Source of the DNA: Acidobacteriaceae bacterium
GTDB lineage: Bacteria; Acidobacteriota; Terriglobia; Terriglobales; Acidobacteriaceae
Assembly (NCBI GenBank): GCA_003139095.1
Contig: PLHW01000010.1
Coordinates: forward strand, 62,001 to 126,000
Length of the DNA: 64,000 nt
Direction of reading: 5' to 3'
A program made the translations under genes and the position numbers. Below the pieces are notes generated by a model. It was not told the origin of the DNA. It did no database searches and was given only the letters and a program-made list of their open reading frames with translations. The stretch's first letter is position 1. Each line of letters opens with the position of its first letter. Below are positions 39,951-52,429 of this stretch, piece after piece.

Positions 39951-41552
39951 TTATGCGGTCAAGAAGGACGGTGCCGGCGTTTCTTCGATGCAGACTCGCG
40001 CCCGTCGGCTCGGCGCCTGCCGTCGACAGAAAACGTCACGATACAATTCGTGGGCAAACTCGTAACACTGCGAAATGGTCCCGTCCGGAAACCGACGCCA
40101 TCCCATCCGCCGCACGATATGCTGCCGGCGCGCCAGGTCTTCGCAAGTGCTTTCAAGCTTCTCCTGGTCCTGGGTCGTGCCGAGGTCGTTTGGGTTCGCC
40201 GTAAAAGACATGCCCGTAACGCTCGCCAGCTCCAGCACGCGCTGCTCGTCAGCGCTCAGTTTCTCAATCTGCAGTTCGATCATCCCCCGCAAACTCTCCG
40301 GCGTTTCCAAATGGATGCTCTCGATCGGCACCTTGATATGCCAGGTCCCGTTCTCGACGGCGATCACACCCCGGCCTTGCAGGTCGTCCAATATGCACAC
40401 CATGAACAAAGGATTGCCTTCGCTGTGGCGGTGGATCAGCGAAGCTAAACCCTGCGGCGCGGCTGCTTCCGGCGTCTCGATGGCCAGATACTCAGCCACT
40501 TCGCTTTCTGTCAGCGGCTCCAGAGCAATCTCCCGACATAGCTGATGCACCAGCAGATCCTGCTTCACCGCTTTCAACGGATGTTGCACGAGCGCGACGT
40601 CCACCGGTCGATAAGTGCCGATCAGCATCAACTTGCCGGCTGAGCGGCGGCGAGCCAGAGCGGAGATAAAATCCACTGTGGATGGATCCGCCCAGTGCAA
40701 GTCCTCGAACACCAGGAGCAACGGTTTTTCGGAACTGATCGTCTCCGTTGCTTCAATGATTTCGCGCAGCATGCATTCGGGCGTAGAGCGGGCAATCTGC
40801 CCCTGCCTCTCGCGTTGTTCACCTCTTACATGAGCGGGAAACTGCATCAGCACCGTGGGGGCTTGAACAGCGAGAGTTCGTGCCACGGCGTCTCCTCCGG
40901 AACCGTTACACAACTCCGAGAGCGCCTCCAGCACCGGATAGTACGCTTCCTTGCTTCCATAGCCCTCCACGCATTGTCCACGCGCAACGCGAACGCCCGG
41001 AAAATCTGTAGCGACCCCTCGTACAAACTCGTCGACGAGACTTGTTTTCCCAATGCCTGTCTCACCCGTGACAAAAACAACCTGGCGTTGCTGCGCCAAG
41101 CTCCTCTGCAGGCAATGGCGTAGTTCCTCCAATTGCGCGTCCCGGCCAACCAGTTTCCGGGAGGGCGGCGCATTCCCCAGGTCCACTTGGACGGTCACAT
41201 CCGCGATGGGAGCGATGAACTGATACCCCCGTCTCGGTAGCGTCTCAATAAACCGAGGATTCTTCGCATCGTCGCCAAGCGCATGGCGGACATCAAGAAT
41301 TTGGCTCTTGAGCACCTCGGGCTGGACATACGTATCCGGCCACACGGCTTCGAGCAGTTCGCTCTGCGTCACCAGCCGTCCGGGGTGGTCCACCAGATAC
41401 TGCAGGACGCCGAATGCCTTGGGCGTCAGCCGAATCCGCTCCTCGTCTCCATCATCGGAGCGGCGCCAGAGACATTCGTTGACCGTGTCAAGTCGGAACG
41501 GAGGGAACTCTTTCGTGCTTGCGCTGACTATGCTGGGGCGGGCTGCACTCAT
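39951..41552 (-). CDS. winged-helix/AAA ATPase transcription regulator, C-terminally truncated
   Basis: 533 residues. Residues 20-115 are an OmpR/CadC-type winged helix (RLTPKAFGVLQYLVDHPGRL, RHALGDDAKNPRFIETLPRR). Residues 135-400 are an AAA/ORC-like ATPase with Walker A VTGETGIGKTSLVDEF and Walker B LLLVFEDLHWADPS. Family members normally continue for several hundred residues of TPR repeats after YRDVFCRRQAPSRRAR; here translation changes to unrelated VCIEETPAPSFLTA and stops. The KdsC-like gene ends only 18 bp away, so the tail is deleted, not merely frameshifted. ATG 41552 has GAGG upstream. Confidence 0.85.
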   Translation of the reverse strand: MSAARPSIVSASTKEFPPFRLDTVNECLWRRSDDGDEERIRLTPKAFGVLQYLVDHPGRLVTQSELLEAVWPDTYVQPEVLKSQILDVRHALGDDAKNPRFIETLPRRGYQFIAPIADVTVQVDLGNAPPSRKLVGRDAQLEELRHCLQRSLAQQRQVVFVTGETGIGKTSLVDEFVRGVATDFPGVRVARGQCVEGYGSKEAYYPVLEALSELCNGSGGDAVARTLAVQAPTVLMQFPAHVRGEQRERQGQIARSTPECMLREIIEATETISSEKPLLLVFEDLHWADPSTVDFISALARRRSAGKLMLIGTYRPVDVALVQHPLKAVKQDLLVHQLCREIALEPLTESEVAEYLAIETPEAAAPQGLASLIHRHSEGNPLFMVCILDDLQGRGVIAVENGTWHIKVPIESIHLETPESLRGMIELQIEKLSADEQRVLELASVTGMSFTANPNDLGTTQDQEKLESTCEDLARRQHIVRRMGWRRFPDGTISQCYEFAHELYRDVFCRRQAPSRRARVCIEETPAPSFLTA

Positions 41553-41692
41553 GGTTTTTACCTCGCTCGTGGGATGCATTATGGAAATATTCCCCGCCCG
41601 CGGACAACCCTAGATGGGGTATGCGACAGCCTGCCCTGTGGAGATGGATGGTGACACCACTTTAGAGGGGGTTGGAGACAACCCCGGCGCGG

Positions 41693-42079
41693 TCAGATAT
41701 CGAGACGCTTCCGGCCAAAAAGGCGAGCGTCAATCGACCAACCCCCGGGTCCCAGGATTGCGAGAGCGATCCCCATTGTGGCCAATAGGACGGTGCCCCG
41801 CAGCTGGTCCGTACCGGTGAGAGCAATTCCGAACTCGGTCACCGCCAAAAGCACCCCGGCGACTGGCGTCCACAGACCGGCGAGTAGAAAGACTCCTTCG
41901 CCTGCCGCGATTACCTCCAGCCAAACCGATGCCGGGTGCGGCGTTCCCATCAGCCCGGCGATGCCGTCGTGAAGCAAGAGAGTTCCGACAACGAGCCGCA
42001 GTAGAAGAAGCCCACTCCCAGGCCAACCACGCGGGAACATGGAAAATAAGCGTTGCAATATGATACCTGTACCAGACAT
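41693..42079 (-). CDS. DoxX-family membrane protein
   Basis: 128 residues with four hydrophobic segments: LLLLRLVVGTLLLHDGIAGL, VWLEVIAAGEGVFLLAGL, PVAGVLLAVTEFGIAL and LLATMGIALAILG. The helix pattern and the RLVVG start resemble DoxX/DoxD-like proteins, whose members act in thiosulfate:quinone or thiol-redox membrane complexes, though many have unknown roles. Neither possible start (42079 or 42040) has a good ribosome site. The last residues (RLFGRKRLDI) are basic and cytoplasmic. Confidence 0.7.
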   Translation of the reverse strand: MSGTGIILQRLFSMFPRGWPGSGLLLLRLVVGTLLLHDGIAGLMGTPHPASVWLEVIAAGEGVFLLAGLWTPVAGVLLAVTEFGIALTGTDQLRGTVLLATMGIALAILGPGGWSIDARLFGRKRLDI

Positions 42080-42152: not shown

Positions 42153-42785
42153 TTACAGTTCAATGATTCCGCGCTTCAGCGCGATGGTGACGGCGTGCGT
42201 TCGGTCGCTGGCGCCCAGTTTCGAGAGGATGTTCTTGACGTGACCCTTGACTGTGTCCTCGGTGATCCCGAGTTGATCGGCGACCAGCTTGTTCGCATTC
42301 CCCAGCGCAATCAGGCGCAGGACATCGATTTCTCGCGCGGTCAGGGCGTCATCCACCGCGTGGTCAGCGAGTTCAGCAGCAATCTCAGCGGGAATGCGCT
42401 TTTGTCCGGCATGCACCGCGCGGATTGTCTCCAGCAGTTCCTTCCGCAAAAGACCCTTTAACAAATAAGCCCGCGCCCCAGCCTTAAGAGCGCGCAGAAC
42501 CTGTACGTCCCCCTTATAGGTCGTCAAGACGATAATGCGGGCTTCCGGGAATTCGCTGCAAATGGCGCCCATCGCCTCGATGCCATCCATCTCCGGCATC
42601 TGCAAGTCCATCAATGTGAGGTCCGGCTTGTGCTTTCGGAACTGCTCAACCGCCTCGCGCCCAGTCGAGGCCTCAGCCACCAGCTTCATGTCGGGTTGAC
42701 TGGCGACCAACGCCGCGATGCCTTCCCGCAGCATCGGATGGTCGTCCACCGTCAGAATCCGGATCACGCTAGGACCGGTGCTCAT
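42153..42785 (-). CDS. NarL/LuxR-type response regulator
   Basis: 210 residues. The receiver domain (1-120) has acidic LTVDDHPMLREG, the phospho-acceptor in LTLMDLQMPEMDG and LLKG. The LuxR helix-turn-helix (LTAREIDVLRLIALGNANKL, GITEDTVKGHVKNIL) is at 145-210. ATG 42785 (MSTGPSVIRI) overlaps the 3' end of the adjoining sensor kinase by 17 bases. It is the only regulator beside two sensor kinases, so both likely signal to it. Confidence 0.95.
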   Translation of the reverse strand: MSTGPSVIRILTVDDHPMLREGIAALVASQPDMKLVAEASTGREAVEQFRKHKPDLTLMDLQMPEMDGIEAMGAICSEFPEARIIVLTTYKGDVQVLRALKAGARAYLLKGLLRKELLETIRAVHAGQKRIPAEIAAELADHAVDDALTAREIDVLRLIALGNANKLVADQLGITEDTVKGHVKNILSKLGASDRTHAVTIALKRGIIEL

Positions 42786-45700
42786 GATCTCGTTCCGTTC
42801 TCTTTCGGAAAAGCCGGAAGCCGCCACGCGCAGAGGACGCCTCGTAGGCAATAAGCCCCGGAATACTCAACTCTATCTCGGTCCCGGCTCCGAGTTCACT
42901 CCAGACCTCCAACTCCGCTCCGATCTGTTTCGCCCGCTCCCGCATTCCCGGCAAGCCCCAGTGCCGCGAACGTCCGCCGCGTTCCAAGACGTGCGGGTCA
43001 ATGCCCTTGCCATCATCGCGGAAACGCAAACGCAGCAGCGAGTCGCCATACGTGATTTCCGTCTCGATACTCCGGGCCTCCGCGTGCCGGAAGGCATTGC
43101 GCAACGACTCCCGCGCAATGCGATAGATATCGTCCTGCAGAATCGGAGACACACTTCGCGGTTTGCCTTCGACCAGCACACGAAACGTTACCGTCCCGCC
43201 GCCGCCTGCCGCACGCTCTTCGCTCAGGTCGGTCATCAGCGCCGTCATCGATTTTGCCAGGTCGTGACTTCCCACCGTGGACGCACGTATATCCGAGATC
43301 GCATCCCGCCCTTCGATGATTGCCTGATCCGCCCGCTCCAGAGCGCCTTCCAGCGCATCTTTTGCCTCCATCGGGCGTGTCGGAAGCATCTCATCCACGG
43401 TCTGAAAGCGGAGCATCAGTCCATGAAAGCTCTGCAACAGAGTGTCGTGCAGTTCCCGAGCAATGCGGGTCCGCTCGCTCACCCGCTCTTCCAGGCGCAT
43501 GTTGAACTGGTGCGCCAGTTGACGGACGCGAAGCTGGTAAACGGTCCAAATCAGCGTCAAAAGCGTGAGCACGCACAGCGCGCGGAACCAGTTCGTCTGG
43601 TAGTAAGCGGGCGCAATCGTAAAGTCCAGAGCTGCGCCTTCCTCGTTCCACACGCCGCTGTTATTGCAGGCGATCACACGGAAGCGGTAGTTACCGGGCG
43701 CAAGGTTCGAATACTGCACCTTTCGATCATTGATGACTTCTTTCCAGTCAGGATCTTGGCCTTCGAGCTTGTAACGGAAGCGAATTTTTTCGGGCAGGGC
43801 AAGGCTGAGAGCGGTGAATTCGATTTCCAGATCATGGATCCGAGGAGGGAGTTGGGGCTTCGAGGAAGCCGCGCCGGTCAAGTTTTGCCAATAAACCCTT
43901 CCATTCGCGGCGATTTGTTCGATGTGCACCGGCGGCGGAAGTTCATTCCGTAAAAGACGACGCGGATCAAAGACGCTGACTCCATCCCAGTTGGTGAACC
44001 ACAGCCTTCCATCTTTCGATTTAGTCACGATCGGCGCATAGCCGTAGGAAGGGCTCCAGCGGACCTGCACACCATCAGGATTATCGAAAATTGTTGCGGA
44101 AATCGTTCGGTTCGTGTCCGCAGCCCACGCCCCCAAGTCAGAACGTGGAATGCGCGCCAGCCCGCACCGCAGTAGTAACCAAAACGAGTGATCGTCATCC
44201 TCCCTTACCCACGAAACATGATTACAAGGCAATCCGTTCCTGGTCGTGAGAGTGGCCAGTCGGCCGTCTCTTAGCCGCACCAGGCCACTGTCCGTTCCTG
44301 CCCAGACGGTGCCCTCACCGTCAAGGTAAATATCATTCACCGGCGGCAAACCGTCGGCGCTGGTATACAGTTTTTGAACCAATCCGTCTTTGAAGTACGC
44401 CAGTCCATCTTTTGCGCCAATCCAAAGCCCACCACGTAGAGAATCCGCCGATAAAATGATGGTGCTTTCCTTGAGCCCCAGTCGCGACCTGGGAATGCGT
44501 TCTATCAGGCCACCGCCGAGCAACGATCCGATGCTCTGATTTCCCTCAAAATCCTCGCTGAACCAGAGCCGCCCCTCGGTATCTTCGGTAATGGAATGAA
44601 CCTGCCCGCTGATCTGCTCGTTTAAAGGAGTGAACCGCCCGTTACTGAAGTAGCTGAGGCCACCACTGGTCGAGATCCAGATGCGCCCGCGGTCGTCTTC
44701 AAAAAGTGATCCGGAATAATCCCCCAGTCCGTGTCCTTTGGGATAGACGGTAATCTGTCCGTTACTCATTCTGTGCAAGGCATCGTTGCTGCCAATCCAG
44801 ACGCTTCCATCTCGGGCACCCAGCACCGACCATACTTTACTGGTCGATAGGCCTTGGCTAACGGAGATCGTCGGAACCGCGAATTCTCGAAAACGGTCCA
44901 GTCCATCACGGGTAAGCACCCACAGATTCCCTTCACGATCCTCGAGGAGAGAGATAACATCATCACCCGAGAGCCCGTCAGAACGGGTGAAGCGATCTGT
45001 TCTTCCCTGGTGTATGTGAACCAAGCCGTGACTAACGGTTCCAATCCACAGACCACCATCTCGGTCGCGCAACATTGATGTCGTATCGGAGAGTTTCGGT
45101 AAATTCGGAAGGGGGTTGGGGAGTATCTTCCCATTGACGACTTGTGTGATCCCTTCGGGGATGGCGATCAACGAATGGCCCTGGTCGTTCACGCAAGCCA
45201 TGTTAGACAGGTGCCAGCCTTCCGGTTTTTGCACTTGCGACATGCGCACAGGAGCGGGCTTCCACTGCCAAAGCCCCGTTTCTGCGTACACCCAGAGGAG
45301 GTCGCCGTCATCGCACAACGACCTTACGTAACGACCCAGACTGCCATCCGTTCCGTAGCACCGAACCTTTCCACCTCGGACAGAGCAGATTCGGCCGCCG
45401 GGTTCCCAGGCGATGCCAACCCATACCGTTCCCCCCCGATCCTCAGAAATTGCAGAGACGCGATATCCTTCGAGTTCCTTGTACTCTGTCAGCACGCCGT
45501 TCTTCCAACTCGCTAGACCGCTCTCTGAGCCGATCCAAAGTGCTCCGTCACGGGTTGTGTGTATCGTCATCACATGCTTCGGAGTCGGTGGCTGCCACAG
45601 CACGGTACGCACACCATCGAAGCGAAGCAGCGTCCCGAGTTCCGTCGCCAGCCACAAATAGCCGTCGGGCGTCTGAGCAATTGAGTAGACGTTGCCTTTG

Positions 45701-45852
45701 GAAAAACCTTCGCGAATTCTCCACGCGGTGTGCGCGTATTGACTTATGTCGAGCGATGGATCCAACCCGAACGCAGAACAGCAACACACCAACACCACGC
45801 ACAACCTGACAACCAACCTTCGTCGTAGATGCGCCTTTGCGAATGTAGGCAT
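42769..45852 (-). CDS. Reg_prop sensor histidine kinase, copy 1
   Basis: 1027 residues. After a hydrophobic signal/anchor (VVRLCVVLVCCCSAFG) come about a dozen Reg_prop beta-propeller blades (pattern DGYLWLATELGTLLRFDG, GGLWIGTVSHGLVHIHQG). A Y_Y_Y domain follows near residue 690-760 (GNYRFRVIACNNSGVWNEEG), then a membrane helix. The HisKA_3 box is RIARELHDTLLQSFHGLMLR. The HATPase carries NAFRHAEARS, DDGKGIDP and GLPGMRERA. ATG 45852 follows the copy-2 stop by five bases. The propeller senses an external ligand, presumably a glycan or nutrient. Confidence 0.93.
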   Translation of the reverse strand: MPTFAKAHLRRRLVVRLCVVLVCCCSAFGLDPSLDISQYAHTAWRIREGFSKGNVYSIAQTPDGYLWLATELGTLLRFDGVRTVLWQPPTPKHVMTIHTTRDGALWIGSESGLASWKNGVLTEYKELEGYRVSAISEDRGGTVWVGIAWEPGGRICSVRGGKVRCYGTDGSLGRYVRSLCDDGDLLWVYAETGLWQWKPAPVRMSQVQKPEGWHLSNMACVNDQGHSLIAIPEGITQVVNGKILPNPLPNLPKLSDTTSMLRDRDGGLWIGTVSHGLVHIHQGRTDRFTRSDGLSGDDVISLLEDREGNLWVLTRDGLDRFREFAVPTISVSQGLSTSKVWSVLGARDGSVWIGSNDALHRMSNGQITVYPKGHGLGDYSGSLFEDDRGRIWISTSGGLSYFSNGRFTPLNEQISGQVHSITEDTEGRLWFSEDFEGNQSIGSLLGGGLIERIPRSRLGLKESTIILSADSLRGGLWIGAKDGLAYFKDGLVQKLYTSADGLPPVNDIYLDGEGTVWAGTDSGLVRLRDGRLATLTTRNGLPCNHVSWVREDDDHSFWLLLRCGLARIPRSDLGAWAADTNRTISATIFDNPDGVQVRWSPSYGYAPIVTKSKDGRLWFTNWDGVSVFDPRRLLRNELPPPVHIEQIAANGRVYWQNLTGAASSKPQLPPRIHDLEIEFTALSLALPEKIRFRYKLEGQDPDWKEVINDRKVQYSNLAPGNYRFRVIACNNSGVWNEEGAALDFTIAPAYYQTNWFRALCVLTLLTLIWTVYQLRVRQLAHQFNMRLEERVSERTRIARELHDTLLQSFHGLMLRFQTVDEMLPTRPMEAKDALEGALERADQAIIEGRDAISDIRASTVGSHDLAKSMTALMTDLSEERAAGGGGTVTFRVLVEGKPRSVSPILQDDIYRIARESLRNAFRHAEARSIETEITYGDSLLRLRFRDDGKGIDPHVLERGGRSRHWGLPGMRERAKQIGAELEVWSELGAGTEIELSIPGLIAYEASSARGGFRLFRKRTERDHEHRS
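42856..43490. repeat. near-identical kinase-domain repeat, unit 1
   Basis: This segment of copy 1 matches 45914-46548 of copy 2 at about 95% by eye, including one perfect stretch of roughly 140 bases over the HisKA_3 region. Similarity falls sharply on the membrane-helix side. Confidence 0.85.
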
Positions 45853-45857
45853 GCGGT

Positions 45858-48800
45858 TTATGTTTTCGCAGACAGCCACGTACGCCGCCGACCCGGAGCC
45901 ACATACGCAATGGACCCCGGAATACTCAACTCTACCTCGGTCCCGGCTCCGAGTTCACTCCAGACCTCCAACTCCGCTCCGATCTGTTTCGCCCGCTCCC
46001 GCATTCCCGGCAAGCCCCAGTGCCGCGAACGTCCGCCGCGTTCCAGGACGCGCGGGTCAATGCCCTTGCCATCATCGCGGAAGCGCAAACACAGCCGCGA
46101 GTCGCCATACGTGATTTCCGTCTCGATACTCCGGGCATCCGCGTGCCGGAAGGCATTGCGCAACGACTCCCGCGCGATGCGATAGATATCGTCCTGCACA
46201 ATCGGAGACACACTTCGCGGTGTGCCTTCGACCAGCACCCGAAACGTTACCACCCCTCCATCACCTGCCCCACGCTCTTCGCTCAGGTCGGTCATCAGCG
46301 CCGTCATCGATTTCGCCAGGTCGTGGCCTTCCACCGTGGACGCACGTATATCCGATATCGCATCCCGCCCTTCGATGATTGCCTGATCCGCCCGCTCCAG
46401 AGCGCCTTCCAGCGCATCTTTTGCCTCCATCGGGCGTGTCGGAAGCATCTCATCCACGGTCTGAAAGCGGAGCATCAGTCCATGAAAGCTCTGCAACAGA
46501 GTATCGTGCAATTCCCGAGCGATGCGGGTCCGCTCGCCCACCCGCGCTTCCACCGTCATATCGAACTGGTGCGCCAGTTGCCGGACGCGGAGCTGATACA
46601 GCCCCCACAGCATCGCCAGAAACGTCAGCCCGCACAGCGCCCGAAACCAGTTCGTCTGCCAGTACGCCGGATCAACCGCGAAGTCCAGCGCCGCGCCTTC
46701 TTCATTCCACACGCCGCTGTTGTTGCAGGCCATCACGCGAAAGCGGTAATGCCTCGGCGGCAGATTCGAGTACTCCACCCGCCGCTGGTTGACCACCTCT
46801 CTCCAGTCCGTGTCCTGCCCGTCGAGCTTGAATCGGAACCGCACCTTTTCCGGCGCGACAAGGCTCAGGGCCGTGAAATCAATCGAAAGGTCGCGGACGC
46901 GCGGGGGCAGACGCAGACCGGCAGTGGGATCATAGGCTTTTCCGTCTGCTCTGACCTGCTCGATGTGAACTGGCGGAGCAACTTTGTTGAGCCGGAGATT
47001 GCGTGGATCAACAACGCTGACACCGTCATTATGTGCAAACCACAGTTTCCCGTCGGGAGATTTTTTCACAACCGGACTGTAGCCGATGAGCATTGCATGT
47101 GATCTGAACCCGTCGCTGCCGTCAAACGCGGTGGCGTGGATCGCATGTTTCGCGTCTGACGTCCACGCCTGTAAGTCGCTGCGGTCAACGCGCAACAGTC
47201 CGCAGACTGTGGATAGCCACAGCGAAGAAGCGTCATCCTCGGTGACCCAGTGAACCGCGTTGCATGGCAGACCGTTCTTAGTGGTGAGTGTTGAGACGGT
47301 TCCATCCTTTATGCGGCTGAGGCCTCCTTCGGTTGCTGCCCAAAGTGTGCCTTCGTGATCCACATGGAGGTTCCAAACCAGGTTCGCACCCAAGCCGTTC
47401 TCGCTGCCGAGCCATTTGCTGACTTTCCCGTTGTTGAAGCGGGCGATTCCTGCATTGATTGATCCAAGCCACAGAGCGGAGTTCAGCGGGTCGGGAACAA
47501 TGGCAGAAATACGCGGTTCTTTCCCCTCGCTGGACCAAGGCCAGGGCTTGAACTGGTCAACTGTGCCATGGACGAGATGAAACAGCCCCCGGGTGGGATA
47601 GCTGATCCAGACACCATCGTGCTGATCCGCGATTATGGCGTTTGCAGACCCGTCGGGTAGCCCGTTGACGCGAGTAAACCTGCCGTTCTCGAATCGGGTA
47701 ACTCCCTTACTGGTCGTGATCCAAATGCGCCCACGTTTGTCTTCATAGAGCGAGCCTATGTTGTTACCCGGTAATCCCGGAGCGATTATTTCGCGTACCG
47801 AGCCGTCCACTGTAGTAGATTGACCGATTTGCCTTCCTGACGTACCGGTTGAGCGATAGGTGGTCAGTTGCCCCTGCCACCACCTACTAAGTCCATCAAA
47901 AGAACCGATCCACACGCTACCGTCGCGCGCTGGGAAAACTGACCAAGCGGGACTCGGCAATCCTTGGAAAGCGGAGAGTGTAGAAATGACGGGTTCGCTA
48001 AAGCGGTCAACACCACTAGTCGTGCCCACCCAAACAGAGCCTTCCCGATCCTCAAAAAGAGCGGTGACGAGATTGCCTGAAAGACCTTCGCCCATCGCAA
48101 ACCGAGAGGTCTTCCCCTGGTAAACGCGCAGGAGCCCCTGATCATACGTTCCGATCCACAGGGCGCCATTCCGATCACGCAGCAGACTTGAGGCGTTCAC
48201 CGCCCCGCGTATGCCCGGAACGGTGTATTCGGTTATCCTCTCTCCGGCAAGCTGCCACAGATCGTTCTTTACGCCGCTGATGAAAACCAGTTCGCCGGCG
48301 CGATCTCCCGCAACGACGGCTTGGTCCGCAATGAGTGGTTGCGGCATATAGCGCTTAGGGGTACCTGGTTTCCACCGCCAGAGTCCCATCCCGGTACCGA
48401 CCCAGAGGCGGTATTCGCTATCCTCATACATCGAACTCGCGGGTATCTGATCAGTGTAAAGGTAATGCAGGCCCGTGACCGAGCTTGTACTGTCGCCGTA
48501 GCACTCAATTTTCTCAGCCCGGATGGCGCAGAGTTTGCCAGAGGCTCCAACCCACACCGTTCCCTCGTGGTCCTCCAGGAGGACATGGGAACTGCCTCCA
48601 GCGAAATCGGGATATTGGGTCAGCTTGTTACGGTTCCAACTTGCCAGTCCGTCAAGCGTGCCGGTCCAGAGAGTGCCATCGCGCGCGGCCAGAAGCGTGT
48701 TGATATTTGTGCTCGGGAGGCTCTCGCCGAGAGGGGGCGTCCATGGTACAAAGTGAACTCCATCGAAGCGAACAATTCCAAATTCCGTGCCCAACCAAAG

Positions 48801-48995
48801 ATAACCGTCAGGCGTTTGGACGATTGACCGAGTGCTCCCCTTCAAACCGTCGAGTGCCGTCCATGCCCTATGCGTGTACTGGGTGAGATCGAGTGATGGA
48901 TCTGATAGATCCAACCCCGGAGCTCGCGGGCACGCCAACAGCAGCATACCTAACGTGCCAAGCACAATCCGGGCAATCGAAATTCTTGCTGGCAT
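45858..48995 (-). CDS. Reg_prop sensor histidine kinase, copy 2
   Basis: 1045 residues with the same order as copy 1: signal (ISIARIVLGTLGMLLLACPR), propeller blades (TPDGYLWLGTEFGIVRFDG), Y_Y_Y domain, membrane helix, HisKA_3 and HATPase. ATG 48995 matches the MPxx start of copy 1 and has ACGAGG six bases upstream. Copy 2 has an insert (RQIGQSTTVDGSVREIIAPG) not in copy 1. Its kinase end is almost identical to copy 1 at DNA level while the propellers differ. It is the first gene of the operon, divergent from the TonB receptor. Confidence 0.93.
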   Translation of the reverse strand: MPARISIARIVLGTLGMLLLACPRAPGLDLSDPSLDLTQYTHRAWTALDGLKGSTRSIVQTPDGYLWLGTEFGIVRFDGVHFVPWTPPLGESLPSTNINTLLAARDGTLWTGTLDGLASWNRNKLTQYPDFAGGSSHVLLEDHEGTVWVGASGKLCAIRAEKIECYGDSTSSVTGLHYLYTDQIPASSMYEDSEYRLWVGTGMGLWRWKPGTPKRYMPQPLIADQAVVAGDRAGELVFISGVKNDLWQLAGERITEYTVPGIRGAVNASSLLRDRNGALWIGTYDQGLLRVYQGKTSRFAMGEGLSGNLVTALFEDREGSVWVGTTSGVDRFSEPVISTLSAFQGLPSPAWSVFPARDGSVWIGSFDGLSRWWQGQLTTYRSTGTSGRQIGQSTTVDGSVREIIAPGLPGNNIGSLYEDKRGRIWITTSKGVTRFENGRFTRVNGLPDGSANAIIADQHDGVWISYPTRGLFHLVHGTVDQFKPWPWSSEGKEPRISAIVPDPLNSALWLGSINAGIARFNNGKVSKWLGSENGLGANLVWNLHVDHEGTLWAATEGGLSRIKDGTVSTLTTKNGLPCNAVHWVTEDDASSLWLSTVCGLLRVDRSDLQAWTSDAKHAIHATAFDGSDGFRSHAMLIGYSPVVKKSPDGKLWFAHNDGVSVVDPRNLRLNKVAPPVHIEQVRADGKAYDPTAGLRLPPRVRDLSIDFTALSLVAPEKVRFRFKLDGQDTDWREVVNQRRVEYSNLPPRHYRFRVMACNNSGVWNEEGAALDFAVDPAYWQTNWFRALCGLTFLAMLWGLYQLRVRQLAHQFDMTVEARVGERTRIARELHDTLLQSFHGLMLRFQTVDEMLPTRPMEAKDALEGALERADQAIIEGRDAISDIRASTVEGHDLAKSMTALMTDLSEERGAGDGGVVTFRVLVEGTPRSVSPIVQDDIYRIARESLRNAFRHADARSIETEITYGDSRLCLRFRDDGKGIDPRVLERGGRSRHWGLPGMRERAKQIGAELEVWSELGAGTEVELSIPGSIAYVAPGRRRTWLSAKT
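45914..46548. repeat. near-identical kinase-domain repeat, unit 2
   Basis: Partner of 42856-43490, offset by about 3058 bp in direct orientation. It suggests tandem duplication followed by gene conversion of the kinase module. Confidence 0.85.
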
Positions 48996-49210
48996 GTGCG
49001 GCCTCGTCCTCATAAGCGAAATATTCTGGTGCCCGGAGTTCCCCTCCTCCGCCGATGGCAGGTTCTTGCCGAAATTGGCGGCACATTTTGACGGATAATA
49101 GTACACTTTGTAGCTGTTCACGCGTCTCTCAACGTTGAAAGTCCATTCAATTGCAGTGGACGGCGACTTTCGTGTTCAGGGCGCATCTTGCCAGCGAGCG
49201 AGGGTCAGCG

Positions 49211-52200
49211 ATGGGGTCCCGCTTTGTCTTAACCTCACTTCTGTTGCTGTCAATCACCCGCATCTGCGGAACGTTATCTGCTCAAAGTGCTGCTACTGCA
49301 ACAATTGTCGGCCGCGTATCCGATCCACAAGGTGCTGTGGTTGCGAACGCACCGGTTACCGTCCGGGACAGGGATACTGGCACCGAACATCGGACAACCA
49401 CCACAGGCGACGGTCTTTATCGCTTTCCCAATTTGTCACCGGGTACGTACGACGTACAAGTAGCGGTTCCAGGATTTCGCCCATCAAGAATTGCGAGCCT
49501 CCTTTTGAATGTCGGCGACCAGCGCGACGCCGATTTCCGGCTTTTAGCTGCCGGTGCGGATGAAGCAGTGCTTGTCACTGACGAGGCGCCACTTGTCGAA
49601 AGCAGTAAAACCGACGTCTCGACCGTCATCGACGAGCGGGACATGACGAGCCTGCCGTTTACGAACGGCTTCAACGGAGGAGTCGGACCGAGTAACGATT
49701 ACGTGAACATGGCATCCCTCGCTCCGGGTGTACGGTTCGATTTCACTGGCGGCTCCACCGAGTTAGTTGCTCCTGGGGAATTCAATGGACGAGGCAACGT
49801 CTACAACATCGATGCTGCCAACATTACCGATCAGGTCACGAGCGGCCGTGATGCGCTAGGCGCTTCGATCGACGAAGTCAAGGAATTCCAGGTCATCACC
49901 AACAACTACGACGCTGAATACGGCCAAGCTGGTGGGCTCATTGTCAACGTCGTAACCAAGTCCGGGACCAACGGTTTCCACGGCGACGGTCACGCATATT
50001 TCCGTGGACGCAATCTCTCCGCGTCGAATTACTTTTACAACCTTGGGCTCATTGAGAACGGTTGCGGAGGTTCGGGTTGTTCAACGGTCAACGGAGAGCC
50101 ACGTGCGCCGTTTCAGAAACAGGAGTGGGGATTCACAGCGGGAGGCCCCTTCATTAAAGACCACACCTTCTGGTTCGGGAGCTTCGAAAAGACACACGTG
50201 GCTCAACCGCTCACCCTAACTCCTCCTTCAGGGGCTGTGACCGTCACGCAGCCCATCGACGAAATAATCTGGTCGGCTAAAGTCGATCATGTGCTGACCC
50301 AACGCAATCTCGTGTTTGTGCGATTCAACCAGCAGCGGCAATCGCAGGAGAATTTGCAGGTGGGTGTGCCTTCCACGGCCACGCCCGAGTCGCTGGATTC
50401 GTTTGTCGTTCACGATCACACCTTGAATGGCGCGCTCACTTCAACCATCACCCCTCATTCAGTGAACGAGGCCCGCGTCTTCTGGCACCGCTATTTCTTC
50501 CTGACATCCCCAAACAGCACGCTCCCTGGCCAGTTGGGGCCAAACTTCTACCACGGCGCGGATTCCTGTTGTCCTCAGGGGGGCGATCAGAACCGCTACC
50601 AGGGCCTGGATAACCTCACTTGGATCCGTGGCGCTCATACGCTGAAGACCGGAGTCTCCATCAGCTACATGCCCTACACTAGTGTTTTCCAGCAGTTTCA
50701 TTTTGGCCAATACGGCTCCTTTGGTCCCGATGGTTTGCCGACCGAGTTCACGGTGGGCGCCGGCCCAGGTAGGGTGCGATCCAAGGACAATATTTATGGT
50801 GTATACATCCAGGACACATGGAAGTTGACTCCCAAGCTGGCCATGAACTACGGAGTTCGCTACGACTATGAAGCGGGAGCCTTTAAAGGCGGCTACATAG
50901 GCTCTGGAGGTGGCTGCCTGCAAGGAAATGGCATCATACCGGCCTGTTCATCCGATAACAACAATATTCAGCCGCGGCTGGGTCTGGCTTACAGCCCGGA
51001 CAGCAAAACGGTCATCAGCGCTGGATTCGGCGAAATCACACAGTTGGCTTTCATGAACATCTCATTGGACTCCCTCAACTTCGACGGGGTCACGCTGTTC
51101 ACCGTCACGATCACCGATCCATCTGTGCTGGCATTTTTCCCCAATGCGCCTCCCGCAAACGTGCTCGCACCTTTCATTCCCCAAGTTCGCACGCAGTTCG
51201 GCCGCATTCGACCGATTGCCGACAACTTGCATAATCCCGAGACCCGCGATGTCAACCTCTCGATCAGGCGGCAAATCGGCAACACTTGGGTCGTTGGTGC
51301 GAGCTACATCGGCGCGTTCGGTTTTGGGCAATTCGGTGAACGCGATCGCAATTTCCCAGCGATCCTCGCGGATCCCGCCCACCCAGGCTTTTTCTACTTC
51401 GGCGATCGCCCCGACTCTCACTTCACGGCCGTACGCACCAACGAAAACAGTCGGACTTCGAATTACAACGGTTTGGTTGTACAAGCCAGCAAGCGCCTAT
51501 CGAACCACTTCCAATTCCAGACGAGCTATACCTGGTCGCATACGTTTTCCTCGACCGAGGACTTTTACGGCACCTCCGAGCCCGGCGACCCACGAAACAT
51601 TCGCGCGGAAATGGGCCCGGCCGAAAACGACATTCGCAACGCCGCAAACTTCACCTTTGTGGCAGACGCTGGCCGCCTGCTGAACAGCCGCTTTCTTCGC
51701 CGCATCGTGAACAACTGGTCGCTCGGTTGGGCAGGCACTGTCCAATCAGGCCGCCCGTATCCAATTTCGACCGGGACTGGGCCATTCGTTGGATCTGTGT
51801 TCCCAGGCTTGGGCAATGGCTCGGAAACCCAGCAGCGTCCGGATGTCCTGCCGGACGGCACCATCGTCGTTACGAACATTGCCTCGTCCGACGGCTCCAA
51901 CCTGCTGGTCGGCCCCGGAGGAGCGGCCATATGCCGCTGCCCGCAGACGACGTTCCTGGCCCCAGCCAGTGCCTCACCGTTAGGTACGGTGGACACGTTC
52001 AGCGGCGACATCGTGGATTTCCAATTCGTGAATGGGAATCTCCACCGCAACGCCGCCAACACCAGCGGCTACCAACGAGTAGATGTTTCGGTAAAACGCG
52101 AATTTCAACTGAATCCTCACAATGATGCGCTGCGGCTGCAACTACGCGCTGACTTCTTCAACTTGTTCAATCACACTAACTTCCTGTTCTACAACAGCAA

Positions 52201-52429
52201 TGATGTGCTGAACGTGATGCCGCCCTCTACCGATTCGAACTGCCGCGAGTGCTTGAACGCATTCACCGGTGAGTTCGTCGGCGCTGACGGCCATATCCTG
52301 CACCTTGGAGACCTGCAACACGGGCGGACCGGCACCGACTGGCTAAATCCTCGCTTCCTGGGACTGGGTATGCCGGCAGCAGCCGATAAGCCGCGCCAAA
52401 TTCAGCTTTCACTTGCTATACGGTGGTAG
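49211..52429 (+). CDS. Oar-like TonB-dependent outer-membrane receptor
   Basis: 1072 residues. Signal peptide to about residue 26 (LTSLLLLSITRICGTLSA). A carboxypeptidase-regulatory-like domain (about 30-110, VGRVSDPQGAVVANAPVTVR, GTYDVQVAVPGFRP). A plug region (IDEVKEFQVITNNYDAEYGQ, AGGLIVNVVTKSGTNGFHG). The large barrel follows, with repeated aromatic strands and a C-terminus PRQIQLSLAIRW ending in an aromatic residue. ATG 49211 has GAGGG upstream. No SusD partner is present. It is divergent from the sensor kinase pair, suggesting ligand-regulated import. Confidence 0.93.
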   Translation: MGSRFVLTSLLLLSITRICGTLSAQSAATATIVGRVSDPQGAVVANAPVTVRDRDTGTEHRTTTTGDGLYRFPNLSPGTYDVQVAVPGFRPSRIASLLLNVGDQRDADFRLLAAGADEAVLVTDEAPLVESSKTDVSTVIDERDMTSLPFTNGFNGGVGPSNDYVNMASLAPGVRFDFTGGSTELVAPGEFNGRGNVYNIDAANITDQVTSGRDALGASIDEVKEFQVITNNYDAEYGQAGGLIVNVVTKSGTNGFHGDGHAYFRGRNLSASNYFYNLGLIENGCGGSGCSTVNGEPRAPFQKQEWGFTAGGPFIKDHTFWFGSFEKTHVAQPLTLTPPSGAVTVTQPIDEIIWSAKVDHVLTQRNLVFVRFNQQRQSQENLQVGVPSTATPESLDSFVVHDHTLNGALTSTITPHSVNEARVFWHRYFFLTSPNSTLPGQLGPNFYHGADSCCPQGGDQNRYQGLDNLTWIRGAHTLKTGVSISYMPYTSVFQQFHFGQYGSFGPDGLPTEFTVGAGPGRVRSKDNIYGVYIQDTWKLTPKLAMNYGVRYDYEAGAFKGGYIGSGGGCLQGNGIIPACSSDNNNIQPRLGLAYSPDSKTVISAGFGEITQLAFMNISLDSLNFDGVTLFTVTITDPSVLAFFPNAPPANVLAPFIPQVRTQFGRIRPIADNLHNPETRDVNLSIRRQIGNTWVVGASYIGAFGFGQFGERDRNFPAILADPAHPGFFYFGDRPDSHFTAVRTNENSRTSNYNGLVVQASKRLSNHFQFQTSYTWSHTFSSTEDFYGTSEPGDPRNIRAEMGPAENDIRNAANFTFVADAGRLLNSRFLRRIVNNWSLGWAGTVQSGRPYPISTGTGPFVGSVFPGLGNGSETQQRPDVLPDGTIVVTNIASSDGSNLLVGPGGAAICRCPQTTFLAPASASPLGTVDTFSGDIVDFQFVNGNLHRNAANTSGYQRVDVSVKREFQLNPHNDALRLQLRADFFNLFNHTNFLFYNSNDVLNVMPPSTDSNCRECLNAFTGEFVGADGHILHLGDLQHGRTGTDWLNPRFLGLGMPAAADKPRQIQLSLAIRW

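Follow-up and report, generated by a model that had tools for sequence, protein, structure and literature searches.

Two adjoining sensor kinase genes, A and B, in a 64,000-nucleotide stretch of an Acidobacteriaceae genome (assembly GCA_003139095.1, contig PLHW01000010.1, positions 62,001–126,000 of the forward strand; the window) carry almost the same kinase end joined to sensors that are not sisters. Kinase A (42769–45879, minus strand; 1,036 residues in an open reading frame from GTG) and kinase B (45858–49121, minus strand; 1,087 residues, also from GTG) each comprise a Reg_prop propeller sensor, a Y_Y_Y domain, HisKA_3 and HATPase_c, and the sensor of B is most closely related to that of a third kinase, C, which lies on the same contig at a distance of about 91 kb. 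We propose, at a probability of roughly 70%, that B is a chimaeric sensor kinase that arose by transmitter capture, combining a C-like sensor with a copy of the kinase end of A. The double-propeller sensor, Y_Y_Y domain and membrane helix of B would belong to the C lineage, and from the start of the dimerisation domain onwards B would instead carry a kinase end recently copied from its neighbour. We suggest that the copy was transferred by non-allelic recombination over about 640 bp, in a manner resembling gene conversion because both genes survive.

The near-identical tract spans 42856–43497 in A (residues ~794–1008, HisKA_3 and HATPase_c) and 45915–46556 in B (residues ~855–1069), in both on the minus strand. 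The copies align without gaps at an offset of 3059, with 32 mismatches over 642 bp (95.0% identity), and include perfect runs of 146 bp (minus strand, A 43298–43443, B 46357–46502, within the region encoding the dimerisation and histidine phosphotransfer (DHp) domain) and 110 bp. A prediction made earlier from the sequence alone (the original prediction) had described kinase ends about 95% identical over some 640 bp with about 140 bases perfectly shared, all of which the alignment bears out, as it does the edges given, 42856 in A and near 46548–46556 in B. A two-boundary fit to third codon positions places the tract at A residues 787–1008, with 94% identity inside and 40% outside (log-likelihood gain of 118), and the support interval of the upstream edge, residues 782–796, lies just ahead of the HisKA_3 domain, which begins at residue 802 in Pfam; HATPase_c ends at residue 1007. 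The sharp edge claimed ahead of HisKA_3 is thus correctly located, but the intermediate identity of the Y_Y_Y and transmembrane stretch makes the drop on the upstream side less than fully sharp. In engineered chimaeric kinases, the modules are joined at the boundary with which the tract edges coincide.

Synonymous sites separate the regions of the two genes. Within the tract, the proportion of synonymous differences (pS) is 0.086 and the synonymous divergence (dS) is 0.09 (NG86), compared with pS values of 0.73 and 0.78 in the two propeller halves, at or near saturation, and 0.57 in the Y_Y_Y and transmembrane segment. The propellers therefore differ much more than the kinase ends, as predicted, and divergence along the genes is not uniform; such a bounded tract of low synonymous divergence between older paralogues is the pattern expected of gene conversion or other non-allelic homologous transfer. 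The wider comparison drew on 33 genomes or records that supplied 154 related sequences (two genes partly present twice), a set that was chosen rather than random, with eight genomes sampled heavily and 19 giving within-genome pairs. There were 11776 pairs with enough aligned codons, 722 of them within a genome, which became 720 on removal of two same-gene duplicates, and the kinase-end pS of A/B is the lowest of these 720.

Without any recombination, a kinase end under strong purifying selection or codon-level constraint might be thought to produce the same contrast, given that the kinase end is also the less diverged part at synonymous sites in the pairs L006/L010 (0.22 versus 0.62 in the propeller) and L064/L065 (0.23 versus 0.54). 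Kinase-end and propeller values are nevertheless close in L075/L071 (0.43 and 0.47), L066/L067 (0.62 and 0.70) and L012/L032 (0.68 and 0.79), so low values are not intrinsic to this region; the dN/dS ratio of the A/B tract, about 0.4, is not low; and the A and B kinase ends are 93% identical in amino acids to each other but at most 59% to any other found. Conservation alone is insufficient when a dS of 0.09 stands against near-saturated propellers, and because the kinase-end pS of other pairs in the family lies near that of their propellers, we conclude that DNA was exchanged between A and B. Synonymous sites and the trees described below together rule out pure purifying selection, leaving constraint with almost no probability. 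The shared architecture and head-to-tail arrangement of A and B might equally suggest a recent tandem duplication of the whole gene followed by fast divergence of the sensor, a history that is ruled out by the near-saturated propeller synonymous sites next to a tract dS of 0.09, and by sensors that are not sisters; we regard it as barely conceivable.

Kinase C identifies the probable origin of the B sensor. In amino acids the B propeller is 63% identical to that of C and 45% identical to that of A; a sensor tree of 27 rows unites B with C (support 100/100) and places A elsewhere, and forcing A and B together is rejected (approximately unbiased test, p-AU 5.7e-5). The tree of kinase ends unites A with B (support 100/99). 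The groups used in these tests, here and in genome G094 below, were picked because their proteins are alike in the half not under test, and in both the sensor and transmitter trees conflict significantly across the junction, which is the mark of a domain-shuffled kinase. The original prediction of one duplicated pair with specialising sensors is thus not supported, as the sensor of B is sister to that of C. The output end of C consists of PAS repeats, HisKA and HATPase_c in place of HisKA_3, and homology between B and C stops at about B residue 852 (tblastn of the B reading frame against the C region), approximately where the A–B tract starts; sister sensors, together with a tract that begins about where homology to C ends, suggest that B is a C-like sensor bearing the transmitter of A. 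The surroundings also correspond. A regulator with Trans_reg_C and AAA_16 domains in the window (39951–41579, minus strand) has a 58%-identical paralogue near C (L092:5181-7346), which carries an extra N-terminal receiver domain, and a divergent outer-membrane barrel gene lies beside both B and C (in the window at 49151–52429, plus strand, with CarboxypepD_reg and TonB-receptor-like matches), such that the B and C loci look like old paralogous segments.

A and B could instead each have imported the kinase end independently from a donor lineage outside. Their kinase ends do form a lone lineage on a long stem, and histories of kinase ends and sensors differ between genomes as well (L117/L118, L006/L010). 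This history requires two imports of near-identical DNA into adjoining genes, however, and each tract sequence has the other as its closest match among all those found. No other donor kinase end was found in this genome, where the next best match is 57% identical in amino acids, or among 398 family genomes with at most seven candidates scored in each, where the best reaches 59%. These scans scored the two best or up to seven candidate kinases per genome and are not a census. We consider an outside donor very improbable.

The direction of transfer is suggested by gene order. On 13 stretches whose neighbours were mapped by comparison with the genes of the window, the order kinase, regulator, DoxX-like gene occurs on seven (L061, the first locus of L096, L097, L100, L101, L103 and the second locus of L099), two of which, L096 and L097, are from the same genome as A and B. 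Among the others, L104 ends with the kinase, C on L092 is accompanied by a distant regulator (30%), and L098 showed none in a first map and a regulator plus DoxX-like gene after its second kinase in a later one. As A directly precedes a regulator (42153–42785, minus strand) and a DoxX/DoxD-like gene (41693–42079, minus strand) just as its relatives do, it sits in the position usual for such a kinase, which leaves B as the additional gene; as the B and C loci also look like old paralogues, transfer from A to B is likely, and A taking the end of B is less likely. The DoxX-like protein of this recurring unit has no Pfam assignment above the cut-off, and its name is tentative.

The same configuration was observed in other genomes. 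Four of the 720 within-genome pairs, in three genomes, combine sensors of 26–50% amino acid identity with kinase ends of 84–95% and a kinase-end pS below 0.45, indicating that the pattern is occasional. Alongside A/B these are, in G094, L082/L134 (sensors 47%, kinase ends 95%, pS 0.82 versus 0.21) and L124/L132 (50% and 91%, pS 0.75 versus 0.22) and, in G225, L163/L165 (26% and 84%, pS 0.74 versus 0.43), although the L165 sensor has a very long branch and its placement in the tree is unsure. In three of the four pairs the break falls no more than about 20 residues from where HisKA_3 begins; in the numbering of A, the upstream edge lies at 805–808 in L082/L134 and at 793–805 in L163/L165, at the beginning of that domain. 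In G094 the sensors of L082 and L132 are sisters (support 100/100), while the kinase end of L082 is closest to that of L134 and the kinase end of L132 to that of L124. Constraining the sensors of L082/L134 or of L124/L132 to group together is rejected (p-AU 2.9e-60 and 2.4e-43), and so is grouping L082 with L132 in the kinase tree (p-AU 3.7e-5). Homogenised partners are not always adjacent: L124 matches L132, about 25 kb away, rather than its tandem neighbour, and L163 and L165 are on different contigs. Two further G094 pairs have more than 80% kinase identity with pS values of 0.53 and 0.54. Two candidates, L064/L031 in G019 (sensors 30%, kinase ends 81%, pS 0.57), in which the L064 kinase end is closer to one from another genome (L065), and L063/L087 in G129 (39%, 65%, pS 0.53), were rejected as too old to count.

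Of the kinases in these recurrent cases, L082 has a regulator just ahead of it, and L134 starts 5.6 kb past the end of L082 on the same strand; no regulator was detected beside L134, L124, L132, L163 or L165 by blastp with the regulator of the window (E 1e-5). In three of the four pairs at least one kinase lacks an adjoining regulator, and any shared partner there is putative. G225 contains a single close match to the L082 regulator (82%, followed by 62%), and kinase ends at least 80% identical to that of L082 number four in G094 and two in G225 (the next is 64%), which suggests that several sensors may feed one regulator in these genomes. Recurrence in G094 and G225 makes the rationale of a shared output more credible than a single locus could.

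Whether the A/B tract records one event or continuing upkeep is a separate matter. The original prediction was that gene conversion keeps the kinases of a long-lived tandem pair matched, with repeated exchange and selection for a common regulator holding the HisKA_3 ends alike as the sensors diverge. Several features suit such a history: similarity is layered, from the 95% tract through the Y_Y_Y and transmembrane segment (pS 0.57) to the near-saturated propeller; the 146-bp run, counted over all sites, was reached in only 140 of 20000 shuffles; residues 802–869, the dimerisation and phosphotransfer region, are identical in amino acid at all 68 codons, with 4 synonymous and 0 replacement changes compared with 10 and 18 over the remaining tract codons (Fisher p 0.028); and similar pairs of other ages exist elsewhere (pS 0.21, 0.22 and 0.43). 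The absence of replacements shows the phosphotransfer helices to be protected, which fits a shared partner, although slightly stronger conservation of the DHp domain is seen in several other pairs as well. At third positions only, however, the longest run was matched in 4816 of 20000 shuffles and is not unusual; A and B have different amino acids at 16 of 215 tract codons, with a dN/dS of about 0.4; and a single exchange suffices for the tract. In G335, G365 and G249, where tandem kinases also adjoin a single regulator, the kinase ends are no more than 49–50% alike (pS 0.74–0.87), and those of the tandem pair at L124 in G094, with no similar regulator seen beside it, are 36% alike, so that being neighbours does not by itself homogenise kinase ends; A/B is one of five such close tandem pairs seen. 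The nearest sensor relative of B, moreover, has another type of kinase. Homogenisation of a recombinational kind is therefore upheld (dS 0.09 against near saturation), its continuing part is not, and we judge lasting upkeep by repeated conversion unlikely, if well short of negligible. In G249, the second kinase of the tandem pair (L123:6610-9736) is broken into three reading frames.

A number of observations weigh against a capture by B of the transmitter of A, or against its generality. The intermediate similarity of the Y_Y_Y and transmembrane segment leaves room for an older, longer exchange, and B may long have had a HisKA_3 end, with C being the one that switched. Third-position GC content is 0.702 in both copies of the tract and gives no polarity, and no close outgroup kinase was found to orient the transfer. 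The usual slot is itself variable, as the kinases of L102 and L105 have no similar regulator beside them and L060 has a regulator whose next gene does not match the DoxX-like one. Among the recurrent cases, found in only 4 of 720 within-genome pairs, L124/L132 breaks at residues 621–640 and not at the DHp domain, and in G225 a shorter kinase frame (386 residues, 57% identical to the L082 kinase end) lies 1.9 kb downstream of the orthologous regulator, whose partner therefore need not be L163 or L165.

Transmitter capture by B would plug a second sensor into an existing switch. A and B lie head-to-tail on the minus strand in the order B, A and then the regulator, a NarL-type protein with receiver (REC) and GerE domains that is the only one adjoining them, consistent with the prediction of one response regulator for two kinases. 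The likely ATG of A, at 45852, is 5 nt past the stop codon of B, such that A may be translationally coupled to B, and the ATG of the regulator overlaps the 3′ end of A by 17 nt; this spacing looks like that of an operon, in which all three genes would be co-transcribed. For B, the real start is probably a downstream ATG rather than the GTG. Two different periplasmic sensors would thereby act through the same phosphotransfer helices on one NarL-type regulator, with the two propellers presenting different binding faces, presumably to different ligands, and the HisKA_3 dimerisation domain common to both outputs. Identity in amino acids across residues 802–869 makes both heterodimers and a shared partner plausible: phosphotransfer from both A and B to the one regulator would be expected, and the equal dimer interfaces would allow mixed A–B dimers, which possibly form. 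The divergent outer-membrane gene next to B is a candidate target of the system.

More broadly, we tentatively suggest, as a possibility somewhat short of even, that propeller sensors of this acidobacterial family exchange their kinase end as a cassette, joined preferentially where the dimerisation helix begins, and that copying of the cassette within a genome recruits extra, often regulator-less, sensors to one regulator. Were this so, cassette copying would yield networks of many inputs to one output, as with B plus A here and with the four sensors of G094 and two of G225 that share one kinase-end clade. Shuffling is regarded as the way in which new sensor kinases arise, yet an instance is rarely seen while still fresh; the DNA transferred in A/B retains 95% identity, and parallel cases of other ages exist alongside it. 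Two questions become testable in consequence, namely where natural fusions of sensor kinases work and whether a shared regulator selects for matched transmitters.

Among characterized proteins, the propeller sensor and Y_Y_Y part of A matches, over stretches lying within residues 110–762, chains of PDB 4a2l, 3v9f and 3ott, which carry sensor kinase/response regulator names and are hybrid two-component systems (HTCS) of Bacteroides. The Reg_prop and Y_Y_Y sensor is thus common to A, B and the Bacteroides-type HTCS, which has a receiver and a DNA-binding domain in the same protein; A and B have neither in Pfam, with HisKA_3 and HATPase_c both above the cut-off in each, and a separate NarL-type regulator is present instead. 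The transmitters match DesK and VraS chains over HisKA_3 and HATPase_c, and matches to NarQ, NarX and UhpB models are below the cut-off and confined to the transmitter. The REC and GerE regulator is as in NarL/FixJ-type systems with HisKA_3 kinases, from which A and B differ in having two near-identical transmitters and non-sister sensors on one regulator.

Domain shuffling, in which a new input is joined to an existing transmitter, is described as a source of new kinases in two studies (PMC4603909, PMC8895600), the first of which considers such shuffling rare and loss followed by gain likelier than direct shuffling between proteins (PMC4603909). Set against that account, the A/B dS of 0.09 records direct transfer between two adjoining genes. 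Gene duplication yielding operons with several histidine kinases, and hence several inputs to one output, likewise features in the other study (PMC8895600); unlike such cases, B is not a whole-gene duplicate of A and matches it in the transmitter only. Modular shuffling and two-kinase operons are thus already known, and a fresh DNA-level transfer between adjoining sensors, with parallel cases, appears to be a new form of the former. No report of the pattern was found among titles and opening lines of abstracts in the open literature, which excludes most subscription papers; this is weak evidence of novelty.

The nearest named relatives found are metagenome-assembled genomes of Acidobacteriota (Bryobacterales RYN_18 and Solibacteraceae SbA4). 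In comparisons between genomes, the kinase end can look older or younger than the sensor (L006/L010, L064/L065, L117/L118). In L117:10914-14042 and L118:10577-13705, the sensors are near-identical (pS 0.03) and the kinase ends more diverged (pS 0.14), so that one of these two close genomes has probably had its kinase end replaced. L154 and L195, from two genera (G200 and G335), have a third-position identity of 0.81 from about residue 574 onwards compared with 0.32 elsewhere, an exchange with a different upstream edge. The sensors of L088 and L074 (G131 and G264) are 79–81% alike to that of L068 (G200) and their output ends are unlike (20% amino acid identity over kinase columns), which again points to modules having been exchanged between genomes. 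A PAS-HisKA propeller kinase of G230 (L101:2511-6345), whose gene is split between two frames, lies just upstream of a HisKA_3 propeller kinase that has a regulator and a DoxX-like gene; the sensors of this pair fall in one clade and their output ends differ, the mirror image of A/B.

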